Assembly (NCBI RefSeq): GCF_002221505.1
Contig: NZ_CP011036.1
Span: 1,922,001 to 1,986,000, forward strand
Direction: 5' to 3'
DNA from: Pseudoalteromonas nigrifaciens
GTDB lineage: Bacteria > Pseudomonadota > Gammaproteobacteria > Enterobacterales > Alteromonadaceae
DNA: 64,000 bases
Positions 7,101 through 56,810 of this stretch are shown piece after piece. The notes under the pieces were generated by a model, which worked only from the letters and a program-made list of their open reading frames with translations, searched no databases and was not told the DNA's origin. Within the stretch, counting starts at the first letter, position 1. Every line of letters starts with the position of its first letter. The position numbers and the translations under genes are program-made.

Positions 7101-8983
7101 TCAAAATCTGCCATCCCTTTGCTATCAATTAGCATAGAGAAATCCATGATCCAATTAATGCTACCATCGCTAGTTTTAACTGAATAAGGTGTTTCGCCAA
7201 CGACACGTAAGCCAAAGTTTTCTAGCATCGGCATCACATCAGATAAGTGAATAGGCTCATCTTTATGAAATAAGCTTAAACGCACAACATTGCTGTTAGC
7301 TTCTTCTTGCGGGCGATAAAATAACATTTCAAGTTTGTTTTCATCGTTAAGCATTTCTAGCTTTTCAATATCAACAACAGCTGCACTTGGTAATACTTCA
7401 TCTTTATATGAGCGAGCAAATGCTTGAGCATACTTACGGTTTAATTCATTACCGCGTGCTTCGCCAGCTTGCTCTAGTAAGGCTGATTGTAATTTATCTT
7501 CCCAAGTACGGGCCGCTTCAACTAAATTGTTTTCAATGTCTTTCACTTTATACTCTATATTATTATCAGTCACACGCACGGTATAATGAGTACGGGCTAG
7601 TGTTGACTCAGAGAAATAGGTTGTAAATTCGACTTTTTCGTCAGAATTAAATGCATTTGCTAAAATATTTTGCGTTTCATGACGCAGTGCCGTGTTATAG
7701 CGCTCACGTGGTACATAAACCATACATGAGAAAAAACGTCCATAGGCATCTTTACGTACAAACAAGCGACACATATCACGCTCTTGTACTTGCAACACGC
7801 CCATTGCAACTTCTAGCAATTCGCTTTCGCGGGCTTGTACAAGTTCATCTCGCGGGTAGGTTTCTAAAATATTAAGCACCGCTTTATAAGCATGGGTGCC
7901 TTTGGCAAAATCACACATTTGCATAATACGGTCAATTTTACTTTTAAGAACCGGTACGTCTGCCGCACTGTAGTTATAAAAGTTTGACGAGAACAAGCCA
8001 ATAAAGCGATCCTCACCAATAACATTGCCTTTGTCATCAAAACGTTTTACACCAACATAGTCGATATAAGCCGGGCGATGTACGCGTGATAATGAGTTAG
8101 TTTTAGTTAAAATTAGTAAGTTACTACTACGCGCATCTTGGCGAGCAGCTTCTGGTAATTCCGAAAGTAGACGAGTGTGTTCTACACCGGCATTTTTCAT
8201 CAAACCTAAACTGGTTTCCATTACGCCTTTTAACTCGTAATCACCCTGTATTGGCGATAACTCATATTGGCGATAGCCCATTAGGGTAAAGTTGTCTTTA
8301 ACTAACCAGTCTAAAAACTCAACCGTTTCATCTACTTCAGCATTATTTTTGCCAGCACGACGTTTTGGTAGCTCTTTACTAACTGCAATTAGCTTTTCGC
8401 GAATTGGCTGCCAGTCTTCTACCGCTACCGATACATCTGTAAGTACAGACTCTAACTCTTGTTTGAAAGACTCAATCACAGCTGAATCTGTTTGACGGTC
8501 AATTTCAATAAAGAATACTGTTTTGGTCGAGGTTGATTCTTGCTCTGCTTTTAAACCAGATAAACCTGAGATCTTGTCATTTTCATCTCGTTGGATTTTA
8601 AGCGGGCTATGTAGTAATAAGTGAGAGGCAATATTTTCACGAGTCATGGCCATACGTACTGAATCAACTAAAAACGGCATGTCTTTAGCTATAATCTCAA
8701 CAATCGTATGCGATGACTGCCAGCCATCTTTTGCCACTTCTGGGTTGAAAACGCGAATAACCGCGTCATCAGACGTGTTCTTTTCTAGCGAATTCCAAAG
8801 GCTTAGTGCAGCACCATATAAGTCACTATCGTTACGATTAGCCAAATCCTCTTTAGACATATTGCTGTACAAGGCTTTGGCGAATTTTTCAACGAGTAAC
8901 ACATTATCAGCGCGAACTTTTTTGTGGATAAGCTTACAAACATTATCTAAAATAACTGAGGCTTGACCTTCATTTCGTGTCAT
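4154..8983 (-). CDS. gdhB: NAD-specific glutamate dehydrogenase, 180-kDa type
   Basis: Catabolic, NAD-dependent oxidative deamination of glutamate to 2-oxoglutarate and ammonia, by the large bacterial family PF05088. The length, 1609 aa, is typical. Recognisable parts are a long regulatory N-terminal half (about residues 1-700), the catalytic core with GGLRWSDRREDFRTE near 813 and PVGSKGGFV near 845 (substrate lysine region), the Rossmann-type segment GDMAGDVFGNGM near 984, and a helical C-terminal part. The N-terminus (MTRNEGQASVILDNV) is preceded by AAGGAA. It is a single-gene unit: a 210-base gap precedes it, and a terminator follows. The symbol is used loosely, since several names exist for this family. 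Confidence 0.95.
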   Translation of the reverse strand: MTRNEGQASVILDNVCKLIHKKVRADNVLLVEKFAKALYSNMSKEDLANRNDSDLYGAALSLWNSLEKNTSDDAVIRVFNPEVAKDGWQSSHTIVEIIAKDMPFLVDSVRMAMTRENIASHLLLHSPLKIQRDENDKISGLSGLKAEQESTSTKTVFFIEIDRQTDSAVIESFKQELESVLTDVSVAVEDWQPIREKLIAVSKELPKRRAGKNNAEVDETVEFLDWLVKDNFTLMGYRQYELSPIQGDYELKGVMETSLGLMKNAGVEHTRLLSELPEAARQDARSSNLLILTKTNSLSRVHRPAYIDYVGVKRFDDKGNVIGEDRFIGLFSSNFYNYSAADVPVLKSKIDRIMQMCDFAKGTHAYKAVLNILETYPRDELVQARESELLEVAMGVLQVQERDMCRLFVRKDAYGRFFSCMVYVPRERYNTALRHETQNILANAFNSDEKVEFTTYFSESTLARTHYTVRVTDNNIEYKVKDIENNLVEAARTWEDKLQSALLEQAGEARGNELNRKYAQAFARSYKDEVLPSAAVVDIEKLEMLNDENKLEMLFYRPQEEANSNVVRLSLFHKDEPIHLSDVMPMLENFGLRVVGETPYSVKTSDGSINWIMDFSMLIDSKGMADFDKISARFRAALTSVWNNRLENDGFNRLVLMGGLTGREASILRAYAKYMRQIGVTFSQAYIEGTFANYPHIAAKIVNLFTKKFSVKSPASEKTLEKLSTEIYLELENVANLDDDRIIRLYVDMIVATLRTSFFQKDGNGQFKSYVSFKIKPSLIPGVPLPLPAFEIFVYSPRIEGVHLRYGSVARGGLRWSDRREDFRTEVLGLVKAQQVKNAVIVPVGSKGGFVCKQLPTEREAFLKEGQECYKIFIRGLLDITDNIVQGEIVAPVDVTRHDGDDAYLVVAADKGTATFSDIANGIANEYNFWLGDAFASGGSVGYDHKKMGITARGAWESVKRHFREMDIDCQTTDFTVVAIGDMAGDVFGNGMLLSKHTRLQVAFNHMHIFIDPTPDAAATYPERERLFKLPRSSWEDFNKDLISAGGGVFSRAAKSITLSPEMKKMLGTKKASMTPTELIKAALMMDYDLLWNGGIGTYVKSSKETDADVGDRANDALRINGGELGAKVFGEGGNLGATQLGRIEFAAKGGRVNTDFIDNVGGVTCSDNEVNIKILLNGLVTSGDLTRKQRDELLYAMTDEVSKLVLNDCYRQTHTISITQSKGSSTLKEKIRFIHALEKEGKLNRAIEFIPSDEELAERAAAGKDLTRPELAILVSYSKMVLKESFVTDEITENPYYRQLLVNSFPLPLREKFNEAMDNHPLRKEIIATKLANQIVNDMGLNFMVRMHEETGANEAEIALCYSIASELFQMSDTWASVVALDNKIPAAVQTEMLYQLRRTVRRVTRWFLRHRNKAQTITQTVEFFAPTFADLSANLTTYMVDKEGELLVAAAQELTQSGVPAELANRITGLSSLFSAMDLAEISASSKQSIDTVSHTYFKLGANMGLHWFLEQITKQPVANHWQALARASYREELDWQQRTLAEVVLNGFADDNKDVNGQIEQWMDSQELLLQRWKQMLAEFRTSQTHDFAKFSVALRELMLLSHNCV

Positions 8984-50834: not shown

Positions 50835-51269
50835 CTAGTTTTTACCCGATTCTAATTTCTGTTTTAATAATTCAATAAGTTGAATATTAAGCCCGGTAAT
50901 TTCACCTTCTAGCACCTTCACTTTTGCCTGCGACTCTTCATCATCTTTACTGCGTAACAATGCAGTTTCTTGCAGTAGTTTTTCAAGCTTCTCTTGTATT
51001 TCAGCAATTAGTTCATCAAGGGGGTCACCTTCAGATTGTGATGCTTGATCTACATCTTCATTACCTAATAACTTGCGAAACGCCGCTTGATTTTTATCTG
51101 CCAGACTTTTTTCCGCCCCCTCTTCAGATATATCTACTTGGACGCCTTGAGCCACTCCCTTTTGCACTGTCTCTTTTTCAGAATCGTCATCAGCCACCAC
51201 CTTTAAAATTTGTTTTTTCGGGTAAGTTTCTAAAGGTTTAGATGTTATGTTAACTGACATTTTATCCAT
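50835..51269 (-). CDS. Acidic coiled-coil protein, function unknown
   Basis: A 144-aa protein with no signal peptide. Residues about 85-140 form a strong leucine-heptad coiled coil (LDELIAEIQEKLEKLLQET, then LEGEITGLNIQLIELLKQKL); the first half is polar and likely disordered. AAAGGG seven bases before the ATG is a good ribosome binding site. It lies just outside the left edge of the integron cassettes, in the same orientation. I looked for its own attC and found none convincing, so I treat it as chromosomal. Confidence 0.7.
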   Translation of the reverse strand: MDKMSVNITSKPLETYPKKQILKVVADDDSEKETVQKGVAQGVQVDISEEGAEKSLADKNQAAFRKLLGNEDVDQASQSEGDPLDELIAEIQEKLEKLLQETALLRSKDDEESQAKVKVLEGEITGLNIQLIELLKQKLESGKN

Positions 51270-51330: not shown

Positions 51331-51445
51331 CGCTAACTGTTATTTGTTCTTGTATGTAAAAATGTGCCTGTCCTATTTTACTTTTCTTTTAAGCAAAAAA
51401 TCGGACAATGTGTGACGTCAGATTTAATGCGCTTGTTAGTTTTAT
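51331..51445 (-). other. attC-like site of cassette 2 (degraded)
   Basis: On the minus strand it begins ATAAAACTAACAAGCGC directly at the stop of the membrane-protein gene, the R'' box matching the start of cassette 2. TGTCC-ATTTT stems pair in the middle, and a GTTAGCG box ends it at 51331-51337. The outer arms pair poorly, so the left half seems decayed or replaced. Confidence 0.5.
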
Positions 51446-51873
51446 ATTTTAATAAAACCAGAGTAAGCCCACAAAATGGTGCCCAATATAGATATGTAAT
51501 AAATATTAACCAACGATTTATATTTATTAGCTATTGCCTCTCGGTGTTCACTATTTGTCTTTTTCGCATATTCTTCTGACACTACGTCAGCCAATGCGCC
51601 CTTTACCGTTGGAAGCTCAACCCATTGGTGACCCTTATTTAACACAGGATCCTCGGAGTCTTTTTCGAAGTCAGGGTAGACAGAATGCGTGAATCCTAAC
51701 AATAGAGAATAGACTGTTAATAATGCACCGAACGCCCCTAACCAATTGAAGTTATTATAACAAAAAGAAAGAGCTAAATGAATTATGCCCAATAAAGAGA
51801 TGGCAACAATAGATCCAAAAGAAAACATTACACTTCTAGAACCAAAAATCCTCAAGAATGTTTTAAAAAGCAT
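51442..51873 (-). CDS. Cassette-borne membrane protein, function unknown
   Basis: A 143-aa protein with two N-terminal transmembrane segments (about residues 15-36 and 44-62), a soluble middle (YPDFEKDSEDPVLNKGHQWVE...) and a last hydrophobic segment (IYYISILGTILWAYSGFI). The overall form is like small SLATT-type membrane proteins, some of which serve in conflict systems, but I cannot confirm this. AGGAAG precedes the ATG. It fills cassette 2 of the integron, starting 62 bases after the recombination point and ending with its stop codon inside the attC R'' repeat, as cassette genes do. Confidence 0.78.
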   Translation of the reverse strand: MLFKTFLRIFGSRSVMFSFGSIVAISLLGIIHLALSFCYNNFNWLGAFGALLTVYSLLLGFTHSVYPDFEKDSEDPVLNKGHQWVELPTVKGALADVVSEEYAKKTNSEHREAIANKYKSLVNIYYISILGTILWAYSGFIKI

Positions 51874-51931
51874 ATAACTTCCTATAGATATTTTCTCTTA
51901 CACTCGGATATAGAGTAATAATGAAATAAAA

Positions 51932-52023
51932 CTAACGCCACCTTAAGCGGCAAAAAATTGTTTGCTAAAATGTTGAACGAAGTGAAAACAGCAAACTGTT
52001 TTTTGTCCGTTTAAAGGTCTTGT
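51932..52023 (-). other. attC site of cassette 1, left part (split by intron)
   Basis: With bases 53992-54000 this makes an attC of about 100 bases on the minus strand: R'' box GTGCTAAC, arms of about 27-29 bases (51940-51966 with 51990-52018) pairing except for a few mismatches and two or three unpaired bases, a 23-base loop, and R' box GGCGTTAG. Extrahelical bases and GTTAG/CTAAC ends are the defining features of attC. The intron separates the R'' box from the rest. Confidence 0.8.
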
Positions 52024-53991
52024 GTACGCCCGACATGGGCATTGACTTATGGGGTGAAAGTCCTCTGTAGGAAGATCACCGTTTAAATAACACACTGTTA
52101 TTAAACGATAACTACTAGCGAATGGCAAGGGCTAAATCGCGAGAGATAGTCTAGAGGAAGCCGCTAGCAAATCTGTGAGCTGATGAACAAAAACATCATA
52201 TGAGGCGTAGGCTGGAGACGAGCTAGCACAAGATAGCGAAGTCATGTGATCTAACGGCCACCGTAAATGATGCAGTTGTGCAGAGAAAGTCGATGCACCT
52301 TATTCGGGGAGATCTGATAAACACGCATCCGCGCTAACGCTTGGAGATTACCAGTTAGGGACTGGTTGTTCAACCCTTGGCGCTTTGGTTGCTGCGACCT
52401 ACAGCGAGCGAAATAGCAGTAAACAAGCGTTAGTTTCGACGCGCTTTATCGAGTAATCGCTAGAGTGATTTATCAGAAGTCAGCAGACGGCATAGTAGCC
52501 AAACGCCCATCGTAATGGAGGGGACACGGTGAAGGCCTGAACATCTTAACCAGAGGAGATACTACAAATGAACTTGAATTCACATAGATCACCGTGTTGT
52601 GATAGTGATGAACAGCGTTCGACTGTGAATAATACCTCGAATGAATACAACCAAACAGATCGTGACCTGATGGCAAGGGTACTGAGCAACCACAATATTG
52701 GTGCAGCATGGCAACATGTTAAGCGCAATAAAGGGGCTGCGGGTATTGATAATATGAGTATTGAGGAATTTAATCACTTCGCTAAGTTACATTGGCTGGG
52801 TATTAAACAACAATTACTTAGCGGCACTTATCAACCCTTGCCAGTCAAACGCGTGATGATACCCAAACCCGATGGCGGTGAGCGAATGCTTGGATCCCTT
52901 CTGTTATCGACAGAGTGATCCAACAAGCTATTGCTCAAGTGATTAGCCCTTACTTTGAGCCTCTATTTTCACCACATAGTTATGGTTATCGCCCTCATAA
53001 AAGAGCCAGCCAAGCAGTAAATCATGTTCAATCTTGTGTTAAACAAGGTTATAAAACAGCAGTTGATATTGACTTGTCTAAGTTCTTTGATGAAGTAAAC
53101 CATGACATGCTGATGAATCGTGTTGGTCGTAAAGTCAAAGACAAAGCACTCATGCGCCTACTTGGTAAATACCTCCGAGCGGGGATCGCAGAGCGCGAAA
53201 CGGGTCTGTGGTTTGAGTCAACCAAAGGAGTCCCTCAAGGTGGGCCATTATCCCCTTTACTTTCCAATATTTTACTCGATGAATTAGATAAGAAGCTAAC
53301 CTACAAACACCTTAAGTTTGCACGTTACGCTGATGACATAATCATTTTAGTAAAAACGAAAAGCGAAGGACTCATAATCCAACGGGAAATTACTGCGTTT
53401 ATCACTCAGCGATTAAAACTCAAAGTGAATGAATCGAAAAGTCGAGTCGGTCCCGTATCAGGCTCGAAATTTCTCGGGTTCACATTCCGTTACGCTCAAG
53501 TGCAGATCCACGAACAGGCGCTAAAGAAATTTAAAGCAAATGTAAGAGAACTCACTAACCGCAACTGGGGGATCTCAATGACCCTACAAATTCATAAACT
53601 CACGCAGTATTTACGCGGCTGGGGACACTACTACCTAATAGCCAACGCTTATCAACTAACAGTGGATTTAGATCATTGGATCCGTCGTAGGATAAGAATG
53701 TGCTACTGGCGGCAATGGCGTAAACCTCGCACCAAAGTACGCAGTTTAATGAAATTGGGTGTTAGCGAGCGACTCGCCATAGCCTGTGGTATCACCAGTA
53801 AAGGCCCTTGTAGAAGCTCAAAAACAAAAGGAATTAACATTGCGCTAGGTAATGACTATTTAGCATCACAAGGTTTAGTGTCATTGAAAGATATTTGGAT
53901 CAATATTCATTACGGGAGATGAACCGCCCATTGCGGACCCGCATGATGGGTGGTGTGGGGGCTGGAGGTTAGAGACCTCCGGCTACCCGAT
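52024..53991 (+). mobile_element. Group IIC (attC-type) intron
   Basis: A 1968-base self-splicing retroelement. Domain I starts GTACGCCCGACATGGGC, then GGGGTGAAAGTCC. CATCATATGAGGC and GTCAGCAGACGGCATAGTA are further blocks shared with known IIC introns such as the Oceanobacillus one. The reverse-transcriptase gene lies in domain IV. Domain V is 53921-53954 (GAACCGCCCAT, GCATGATGGGTGGTG) and domain VI 53961-53983 (GGAGGT/ACCTCC), ending CTACCCGAT. Ends were chosen because excision restores CTTGTTAGCACTA, the expected attC core. The first bases would be GTACG rather than the usual GTGYG; GTGTACG from 52022 is the alternative. Confidence 0.85.
52568..53922 (+). pseudogene. ltrA: Group II intron reverse transcriptase/maturase, frameshifted
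   Basis: Intact, this would be a 451-aa RT-maturase. Frame 1 runs to 52918 (MNLNSHRSPCCD... VKRVMIPKPDGGERMLG); the rest continues in another frame from about 52895 (IQQAIAQVISPYFEPL...). TTGGATCCCTTC lacks one base relative to the expected TTGGAATCCCTTC (GIPSVIDRVIQQ), a one-base deletion at 52894-52895. RT motifs SYGYRPHKRASQAV, DIDLSKFFDEVNH, PQGGPLSPLLSN and the catalytic YADD near 53320 are intact, as is the maturase domain X (FLGFTFRY, LTQYLRGWGHYY). There is no HNH endonuclease domain, as in class C. A sequencing error is the alternative. Confidence 0.88.
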
Positions 53992-53996
53992 TAGCA

Positions 53997-54647
53997 CTAT
54001 TTTAACGACTTTGCCAAAGAACTATATACAAGATCAACAAAAGTTGTACCGTGCCATTCATCGTCAAGTGATGGATTTACTGTATCAGGTGCTCCACCAA
54101 TAATATCTCGCATATATCGATATGCATTACTTCTTTCTCCCAACGTTATAATTTGCTGCTGATGCTCAGGCGGAAGCATTTTATTCCTATACCACGTACG
54201 AAATACATGTAGAAAAAGCTCTTCGTTACAAGAAAACCATTCACCATGACGTCGAAGGTGTGAGAACTTTTTGTGCAGTTCAGATTCACGAGCAGAACCT
54301 CCGGGTTCTAAAGCGCCAATAATCAATTCCCCATATGTTCCTGTTTGGAGGTTTTGCAAACGTTGAAGTACATTTTTTGAACGTCCTATTTTTATAAATA
54401 AACCGTGTAAGGGGTGTGCACTTTTTGGGGGACCAGCCCATGAATCAGGAACTTGAATTACGTAATAAATACTATCAATAGATCCAAGGGAAACTTTATT
54501 TGCCCAATCACACCAATTAGTTACCCATTCTTCGGCTTCTTTAAAAGTTGGAAAATGTTCAGTTGTGAAATAGTACTCTCCATTCTCGAGGTGTATATCA
54601 GCGATAAATTTTCCATGTTCGCATTTACGAATTCTCTCAATTTTCAC
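53997..54647 (-). CDS. Cassette-borne GIY-YIG (T5orf172/MUG113) nuclease-like protein
   Basis: A 216-aa protein of the T5orf172-type GIY-YIG family: SIYYVIQVP (Y-x-Y strand), GLFIKIGRSKNVLQRLQNLQTG near residue 95 (catalytic Arg region), ESELHKKFSHLRRHGEWF near 130 (catalytic Glu). The N-terminal part (YYFTTEHFPTFKEAEEWVTNW) is unassigned. The frame opens at 54686, but the integron junction GTTAGCAC falls at 54669-54662 inside that extension. The GTG at 54645-54647 has GAGG five bases before it (MKIERIRKCEHGKF), so I use it. Such proteins occur in phages and mobile elements; DNA cleavage is inferred. It is the first cassette gene next to attI. Confidence 0.82.
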   Translation of the reverse strand: MKIERIRKCEHGKFIADIHLENGEYYFTTEHFPTFKEAEEWVTNWCDWANKVSLGSIDSIYYVIQVPDSWAGPPKSAHPLHGLFIKIGRSKNVLQRLQNLQTGTYGELIIGALEPGGSARESELHKKFSHLRRHGEWFSCNEELFLHVFRTWYRNKMLPPEHQQQIITLGERSNAYRYMRDIIGGAPDTVNPSLDDEWHGTTFVDLVYSSLAKSLK

Positions 54648-54668
54648 AGGAACCTCGGATAGTGCTAA

Positions 54669-54828
54669 CAGCTTATTGAACACCACTTTGGGGGTTTATA
54701 ACACCCCAAAACGGCGTATATTACATAGCTCAATAATTCCACTAAATAACTACAATGTAAACAAGTAATTACGTATGTTATAAAATCACCGTTGTTACAA
54801 TACCCCAAAACGACTTTTAATAATGTTA
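54669..54828. other. attI-like region with 18-bp direct repeats
   Basis: The spacer between the first cassette junction and the intI promoter. TTATAACACCCCAAAACG (54696-54713) is repeated as TTACAATACCCCAAAACG (54795-54812), 16 of 18 identical and 99 bases apart start to start. Integron attI sites carry direct repeats bound by the integrase, though these are farther apart than the known ones. Confidence 0.5.
54733..54761 (-). promoter_or_regulatory. Possible cassette promoter Pc
   Basis: TTTACA, 17 bases, AATTAT on the minus strand, directed into the cassettes. The -10 matches only four of six consensus bases. Confidence 0.3.
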
Positions 54829-54858
54829 TTGGACAAAACCCGATTAACTGTCTATGTA
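54829..54858 (+). promoter_or_regulatory. Promoter of intI remnant
   Basis: TTGGAC (54829-54834), an 18-base spacer and TATGTA (54853-54858). The -10 lies inside the LexA box, as needed for repression. Confidence 0.5.
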
Positions 54859-54863
54859 TACAG
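54848..54863 (+). promoter_or_regulatory. LexA (SOS) box upstream of intI remnant
   Basis: CTGTCTATGTATACAG fits the LexA consensus CTGT-N8-ACAG perfectly, with an AT-rich core. It overlaps the predicted -10 and lies 26 bases before the intI ATG. SOS control of integron integrases through such a box is established. Confidence 0.85.
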
Positions 54864-54889
54864 CAGTTTGTTTTTTAGAGGTTAACACT

Positions 54890-54949
54890 ATGAAATCATC
54901 TTTTTTAACTATGATTTCTGAACAAATGCATTTAAAACGCTACAAGTAA
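54890..54949 (+). pseudogene. intI: Integron integrase intI, N-terminal remnant
   Basis: Nineteen codons, MKSSFLTMISEQMHLKRYK then TAA. They match the N-terminus of integron tyrosine recombinases (V. cholerae IntIA begins MKSQFLLSVREFMQTRYYAKKTIEAY). AGAGG eight bases before the ATG and the LexA-box promoter are retained. Homology stops just where SKRT/AKKT would follow, and nothing of the core or the R-H-R-Y catalytic domain is found downstream. The rest was therefore removed, not merely frameshifted. Divergent orientation to the cassettes supports the identity. Confidence 0.72.
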
Positions 54950-54952
54950 AAA

Positions 54953-54990
54953 GGACAGGCGCATATTTTTTGGCAAATAACTGTAACGCG
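54953..54990 (+). repeat. GGACAGGC-type sequence at the right edge of the integron
   Basis: GGACAGGCGCAT followed by AATAACTGTAACGCG directly behind the intI remnant. A related sequence reading the opposite way, GGACAGGCACAT ... AATAACAGTTAGCG, is at 51331-51373 on the minus strand. Both point outward from the cassettes. Possibly a shared attC half or a transposase-associated repeat. Confidence 0.45.

Positions 54991-55124: not shown

Positions 55125-56810
<1,686 letters not shown>

Follow-up and report, generated by a model that had tools for sequence, protein, structure and literature searches.

The 64,000-nucleotide stretch of Pseudoalteromonas nigrifaciens DNA analyzed here (the window) carries beside serS, at positions 51331-54949, a short integron-type segment made of an attI recombination site, two gene cassettes and the stub of an integrase gene, intI. 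We propose that this segment is one of a set of dispersed integrase-less attI platforms where an integrase made elsewhere exchanges the cassettes in trans, a reading to which comparison of related genomes leads us to give a probability of about 0.72. In this mechanism, the serS platform (attI plus cassettes) would have had its own integrase gene cut down to 19 codons and would belong to a set dispersed on the large replicons of this Pseudoalteromonas, while an IntI encoded elsewhere, probably under LexA/SOS control, would act in trans, putting cassettes with genus-type attC sites into the orphan attI sites and taking them out; a group IIC-attC intron would have entered the attC of cassette 1 later. 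Such trans action predicts a step-like loss of homology at the crossover, a strict orientation of attC and cassettes common to several platforms, all of which were seen.

A complete attI site without its integrase gene

The attI of the window (type A, orphaned; 54666-54863, plus strand) meets cassette 1 at a G|TT crossover between 54669 and 54668. Over 198 bp it shares 94% identity with the attI belonging to this genome's intact integron, and it scored 131 bits (E 1e-37, model positions 1-199 of 200) against R1, our sequence-only attI model built from 35 attI sites, a score that is partly by construction, the window sequence being among the 35. What is left of the integrase gene is MKSSFLTMISEQMHLKRYK* (54890-54949, plus strand), 19 codons followed by a stop, which matched residues 1-29 of the intact IntI in tblastn (55%, E 1e-4); the intI-like remnant reported by the first-pass annotation, an earlier reading of this DNA, is real but tiny. 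Upstream of the stub, CTGTCTATGTATACAG (54848-54863) was read from the sequence as resembling what we take to be the LexA-box consensus. In our alignment A1, CTGT-N8-ACAG is complete in 22 of 25 non-orphan rows, altered in 3 and absent from the 10 orphan rows.

The intact IntI of this genome (G000; G and L numbers label the compared genomes and loci) has 320 aa, lies at G000:C1:1721141-1722100, about 254 kb from the window, and is accompanied by an attI, a LexA-like box and an array of its own. It scored 515 bits against TIGR02249 (curated cut-off 265) and aligned end to end with IntI4 of PDB 2a3v. The first-pass annotation had concluded that the serS segment was a former integron that lost its integrase, which holds locally but leaves out this intact IntI elsewhere in the genome.

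Copies of attI in the genome, the genus and the order

At E 1e-4, R1 matched 72 of 108 genus genomes, the richest of which has 12 copies, and IntI matches at E 1e-60 occur in 83 of the 108. G000 has 11 attI places, 7 of them scoring at least 70 bits; in addition, a weak match overlaps the window's site on the reverse strand. Among 147 other genomes of the order, searched with stricter filters that lose some weak matches, R1 matched only 3, all of one genus (G119, G144 and G164, with 2, 6 and 11 copies); because the other 144 had no match, the model appears specific, and judged by these matches a second genus of the order has the same multi-copy attI pattern. Phage records gave no match to attI.

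In a chosen set of 14 near-complete genus genomes, 2 of which are without any attI site, we counted 74 attI sites; compared by eye, 4 of these have an IntI match no more than 1 kb away. This total is an undercount, because some IntI proteins of 57-68% identity have an attI that R1 does not see.

Some arrangements of these copies are worth recording. G005 has two tandem attI sites 1.25 kb apart in one array (L166 / L168, C2:209925-211370). In G000, the copies at C1:2016682-2016860 and 3086301-3086479 have 1.6 kb of identical surroundings, the first lying near genes that we take to be of IS66 type (IS, insertion sequence). Some attI copies may, to judge from such surroundings, be moving with other elements.

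Genus-type attC sites at the orphan attI sites

When the attC of cassette 1, with its intron left out, was used as nhmmer query, it found dozens of copies in the arrays of relatives (best E 1.5e-16). They form a genus attC family of about 93 bp, 6 members of which lie in the G063 array that adjoins the intact intI of the serS locus (L072). The profile grown from them recovers the window's own attC at E 3e-21 by construction; most of the loci having been chosen for holding integrons, the E-values it gives do not apply to whole genomes. The bottom strand of the window's attC is predicted to fold into an attC-type hairpin (DNA fold, -20.2 kcal/mol). In 118 distinct attC copies, arms paired with their own partner at -6.64 versus -5.48 with foreign arms; on average, 78% of foreign arms did no better than the own arm, and in 38 of 102 arm pairs at least 90% did no better, giving modest support, on modeled energies, to compensatory change. 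The genus profile replaced two scanners, one energy-based, which missed the window's attC, and one arm-matching, which was unspecific (5 to 73 hits per strand in a 50 kb control, depending on the cut-off).

Detailed analysis covered the 56 of the 74 sites that scored at least 70 bits, in 11 genomes, and left aside the other 18. Full-length IntI lies beside 2 of the 56, a long broken one beside 2 and a remnant beside 4 (one weak, E 0.006), and none was found beside 48 at E 0.01 within the flank available for searching (less than 2.4 kb at 10 of the 56 sites and less than 600 bp at two of these), although one of these 48, on C2 of G000, has by eye a decayed intI start. The genus attC profile gave 69 matches on the cassette side, at 35 of the 56 sites and all on the cassette strand, with 0 matches on the opposite strand and 0 in the 127 kb of intI-side flank.

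This placement bears on the idea that the attI-like copies are repeats spread by other mobile elements, with neighbors that are not cassettes. Five G000 sites do have parts of their 3' flank in common, two of them being identical over 1.6 kb; the G000 site L106, the one neighborhood that was read, lies among IS genes, and IS91-like elements abut attI twice. Such spread would not account for attC on the expected side and strand only, nor for cassette genes recurring at several platforms. For the strong sites the idea is largely refuted, and as a general explanation we hold it to be very improbable, though for some G000 copies it may hold.

Some cassette genes (at least 80% identity) recur at different platforms: G100 and G105, for instance, carry the first cassette of the intact G000 integron at an orphan platform. 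The 21 groups of open reading frames (ORFs) common to several platforms include transposase, intron and antisense frames and frames from one tandem attI pair, and only a handful are cassette-like by eye. In the arrays of two orphan platforms we also noticed genes, whole or in pieces, for transposases that we take to belong to the IS110/IS1111 family (L090:4704-5765 and 8053-8325; L113:8437-10213), possibly elements that target attC.

Cassettes differ between orthologous orphan sites

Grouping the sites by their intI-side flank gave 11 platforms present in more than one genome and 78 pairs with a direct flank match. Nothing was common to the first 600 bp of cassette sequence in 74 of these pairs, one had only a later stretch (attC) in common, and 3 had the first cassette. 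Removing the 7 pairs with an intact local IntI left 71, with 67, 1 and 3 in the same classes, and of the 29 strictest pairs (flank at least 90% and attI at least 80% identical) 26 differ and 3 have the first cassette in common. The counts include two cases, the serS site of G005 and an aldehyde-dehydrogenase site of G001 (L066:2113-3952, L118:655-2749), in which an element abuts the attI crossover; we take these related elements to be IS91-like, and they carry a tyrosine recombinase about 29% identical to IntI.

The boundary of the differences is sharp. Alignment of 63 orphan pairs at G|TT gives a mean ungapped identity of 70% in the 40 bp before and of 30% from +3 to +40; this profile leaves out 3 cassette-sharing pairs, 5 without GTT at the attI end and 7 with an intact IntI, and its three anchor bases match by construction. 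Between G000 and its nearest relative G101, the orphan aldehyde-dehydrogenase and amylase sites are about 95-96% identical over 1.8 kb including attI, up to crossover position 0 or +1, and different cassettes follow; at the aldehyde-dehydrogenase site the far flank then resumes at 97% over 5.2 kb. The first-pass annotation, in calling the window's segment a former integron reduced to two cassettes, had assumed a dead relic. These two sister platforms, which lack an integrase and differ in cassettes despite matching attI and flank, do not support that assumption, nor does the wider pattern in the genus.

These results could also arise without any action in trans if homologous recombination had imported the arrays at orphan attI sites from strains whose local intI was intact. 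Donors would be available, considering that relatives have a local intI at serS (G063, G035) and at the amylase site, where by coordinates 6 of 11 amylase-carrying genomes have intI (five full-length, one lacking about 30 residues) and G000 and G101 are orphaned; flanks 72-98% identical would also be enough for recombination. Import would, however, be expected to bring the donor's intI side along, and homology stops at the crossover itself. The aldehyde-dehydrogenase site is a further difficulty: of 15 genomes inspected, 8 have nearly the whole attI and one more has part of it, none has an integron IntI there, and the first cassette differs in 28 of 28 pairs, 6 of which have only a stretch at the place of attC in common. 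No IntI match was seen by eye near these aldehyde-dehydrogenase genes, the G000 copy having a decayed intI start, which implies that intI was once there. We therefore regard import as a rather improbable source of the pattern and prefer insertion and excision in trans.

The serS site in relatives

Beside the window's own, 28 serS loci were inspected. An intI gene lies beside serS in 4 of them, intact in G063 and G035 (81-82%), cut by the contig end in G008 (84%) and of a 39% IntI in G065, in each case convergent with serS. As the first-pass annotation had proposed, the serS locus of relatives was compared for intI and cassettes; that no relative would have either at this locus is excluded, because relatives carry intI there. 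Fragments of intI remain in 4 of 28 (G017, G001, G074, G049), and G095 has only the first codons. Eleven of 28 have attI without intI (G097, G105, G005, G090, G015, G084, G064, G100, G067, G016, G013), and 8 have neither (G101, G086, G068, G089, G091, G059, G036, G056), G101 having different cassettes and no attI. The orphan attI of G013 adjoins a partial serS duplication beside serS (L081:8024-9147). Transposon-like inverted repeats with the motif GGACAGGC were considered as flanks of the serS segment and dropped, the motif lying about 170-180 bp from the serS end in only 3 of the 28 relatives.

The 11 orphan sites have a similar junction just before the LexA-box position, consistent, on this comparison, with one ancestral loss of intI; their attI sites are 77-97% identical, yet in none of the 55 pairs do the first 600 bp of cassette have anything in common. 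This matters for the view that the serS integron of the window lost intI and froze with two cassettes, so that nothing recombines now, a view that overlaps with the one we propose and could hold at this site even if cassettes turn over in trans elsewhere. An intI of 19 codons and a truncated last attC agree with it, as do the different segment without attI in G101 and the 8 serS loci, G101 among them, without attI and intI. Xanthomonas strains that have an intI lesion in common usually carry identical arrays as well (PMC12444791, citing earlier work), and the pattern here is the opposite of that one. A dead platform does not sit well with an attI that is complete and 94% identical to that of the intact integron, with the two other integrase-less G000 platforms that differ in cassettes from G101, or with the 55 differing pairs of the serS group. 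We judge it unlikely, if the least unlikely of the alternatives to turnover in trans.

Differences among 10 orphan serS attI sites amount to 0.077 per site in conserved columns, defined as those conserved in integrase-linked attI, and to 0.185 in variable columns (permutation p 2.5e-4). The constraint on orphan attI sites is thus, on these alignments, present but relaxed.

Weight of the evidence for action in trans

Several observations weigh against turnover in trans. No recombination event is seen in these sequence data, and integrase-linked type B attI sites are more constrained than the orphans (0.0145 vs 0.105 per site, conserved vs variable). Strong sites without an attC of the one family modeled number 21 of 56. 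The pairs compared overlap phylogenetically and are not independent; 24 of the 71 have attI sites less than 80% identical, 8 window pairs compare type A with type B, and two of the sequences abutting attI are the IS91-like elements and not cassettes. Of the 11 genomes that carry strong attI sites, five encode no IntI that is both full-length and unbroken (broken in G013, G016 and G005; none at E 1e-60 in G100 and G003), yet they retain these sites. For G097, G067, G095 and G105, whose intact IntI reaches only 57-68% identity and has an attI unseen by R1, recognition of the orphan sites is unproven. Cassettes that differ between orthologous attI sites without a local intact IntI were found for the set of platforms; at the window's own platform the nearest relative, G101, has no attI to compare.

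Taking these points together with the supporting evidence, we infer that cassette exchange is the work of the distant IntI and that the platform in the window may still be involved. We lean slightly towards a more specific arrangement, a distributed integron in which one SOS-controlled integrase would serve about ten attI docking sites on two large replicons (and, weakly, on a 74-kb one).

Anatomy of the window's locus

Judged from its sequence, the serS locus is a genuine integron locus: attI and cassettes ending in attC are present and an adjoining functional intI is absent. From left to right on the plus strand it consists of an FspA-like gene (50835-51269, minus strand), a variable segment of about 51384-54945 and serS (55125-56429, minus strand). 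The FspA-like gene is the far-side flank in the closest genomes and was found in 9 of 108 genomes, including G000, at E 1e-8; serS, the conserved flank on the intI side, is present in 108 of 108 genus genomes. On the plus strand, blastn homology to G101 ends at 51383 (left edge, 51364-51383) and restarts at 54946 (right edge, 54946-54970, GGACAGGCGCAT...).

The first-pass annotation had described two 11-bp inverted pairs, each bracketing one minus-strand gene, as the signature of cassettes. Letters and coordinates were exact (GTTAGTTTTAT at 51435-51445 with ATAAAACTAAC at 51926-51936; GT at 52022-52023 plus TAGCACTAT at 53992-54000 with ATAGTGCTAAC at 54659-54669), and each pair encloses one ORF (51442-51873 and 53997-54686, respectively). 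A bare 11-bp inverted pair is not unusual, 3 occurring in the intron-free stretch against a mean of 0.92 in 200 shuffles and 13.5% of shuffles reaching this number; two pairs starting with GTTR, however, are unusual (2 seen, 0.015 expected). Both cassettes are bracketed in this way, but only one has a full attC, the second having R'' alone.

Cassette 1 (51936-54668, minus strand) measures 765 bp without its 1968-bp intron, its bounds being set crossover to crossover from the attI end and the attC R' box. It encodes, from a probable GTG start at 54647, an MUG113/T5orf172 protein (53997-54647, minus strand; PF13455 at E 4e-10, PF10544 at E 4e-8) that is presumably GIY-YIG-like. This cassette was not found at other platforms of the 108 genomes; a search of the 107 other genomes at E 1e-10 gave one 64% relative, in G083. 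Its attC runs on the minus strand from the intron to R' at 51932-52023, and R'' continues past the intron at 53992-54000, which joined to 52022-52023 gives GTTAGCACTAT, the complement of 54659-54669.

Cassette 2 (51435-51935, minus strand; inverted pair 51435-51445 / 51926-51936) has a 3' attC reduced to the R'' box, followed directly by flank, and its 3' end gave no attC profile match. Its gene (51442-51873, minus strand) encodes a 143-aa protein with, by eye, a membrane-bound look and no family match in profile searches.

The attI end (54666-54686, minus strand) reads GTGGTGTTCAATAAGCTGTTA, and at three type A sites of G000 it is in frame, as M-V-F-N-K-L-L, with the first cassette; by its reading frame it might supply a translation start to cassettes. 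Type A and type B sites also have a short inverted repeat near the crossover (A1 columns 25-44) whose arms change together, RNAalifold predicting only 4 pairs on attI, 2 of them with both sides changed.

A group IIC-attC intron in cassette 1

The intron (52024-53991, plus strand) lies antisense to the cassettes, between TTGT and T in R'' (exons TTGT|T), and matched Rfam RF02001 at 130 bits and RF01998 at 65 bits. Its reverse transcriptase (RT)/maturase (52568-53922, plus strand) is split at 52915-52918 into two ORFs, 52568-52918 and 52915-53922, which scored 71 and 285 bits against NCBIfam TIGR04416, both under the curated cut-off of 300; the closest solved structure to the second half is the GsI-IIC RT (E 4e-92). 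Group IIC-attC introns target the bottom strand of attC, where they enter between TTGT and T and run antisense to the cassettes (PMC7923331), as found in the window. By insertion site and orientation the intron is an ordinary member of this group, to which its RT, with a class IIC enzyme as nearest solved relative, may also belong.

Three copies occur in G000, with 0 differences over 1968 nt: in the window, in the attC of the intact integron's first cassette and, in a gene instead of an attC, antisense inside an EAL/GGDEF-like gene (L088:3400-5367, G000:C1 about 1240400-1242370; domain names by eye). All three have the same split RT frame, which means either that the copies moved with help in trans, or that the split is tolerated, or that a systematic sequencing error produced it.

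A near copy of the intact integron on a plasmid

The R-plasmid pRVS1-224 of Aliivibrio salmonicida carries a near copy of the intact G000 integron (NZ_CP034238.1 247152-261349, L253), with an IntI 99.4% and an SDR flank 99.2% identical (protein) and an opposite flank 97.1% identical over 1.65 kb. Between these flanks lie dfrA1 and a genus-type attC, an arrangement that we take to be the one labeled class 5 integron. These identities suggest that a plasmid took up a chromosomal integron locus of Pseudoalteromonas. A near-identical integron with both flanks on the R-plasmid of a fish pathogen would make this marine genus a plausible source of a mobile integron.

Relation to known integrons and implications

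With sedentary chromosomal integrons such as those of Vibrio and Xanthomonas, the present system has in common attI, near-identical species-type attC sites, a LexA box and a divergent intI, but it differs in its many small platforms with one or no intact integrase of matching type.

An integron usually has a single attI, located near its integrase (PMC9024848). Clusters of attC sites lacking integron-integrases (CALINs) contain cassettes with attC without a local intI and are reported to be mobilizable in trans by a functional IntI (PMC12444791). The platforms described here are like them in the first respect and, we propose, in the second, but their arrays start with a complete attI and, at orthologous sites, vary from one species to another. 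The window itself has one full attC and one reduced to R'' where the CALIN definition asks for at least two without intI, and its attI is unforeseen by that definition. Shewanella genomes have many CALINs and single attC cassettes (PMC9229058), and in a Shewanella prophage one CALIN has its own attI (PMC9892861). That case is similar, being an integrase-less array that starts with attI in a genome with an intact integron, but it is a single one, whereas here up to about 12 copies per genome are dispersed over large replicons in many species and their turnover was compared. Cassettes of the delta-attI type are recombined by IntI1 (PMC12901181). In the literature searched, which had subscription papers and preprints outside its scope, we found no description of dispersed attI platforms, the prophage CALIN being the one partial precedent.

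Arrays without intI tend to be read as debris because attI sites outside class 1 are poorly described and undetected by IntegronFinder (PMC9024848). Should cassette exchange continue at orphan attI sites, many of these arrays would be live, one integrase would feed several sites, and the cassette capacity of a genome would be underestimated; this bears on the origin of CALIN-like arrays and on the persistence of attI under selection after intI is lost. A distributed integron, if true, would mean that loss of intI beside a platform is not fatal and that the integrase gene and its docking sites evolve independently within one genome-wide exchange system.

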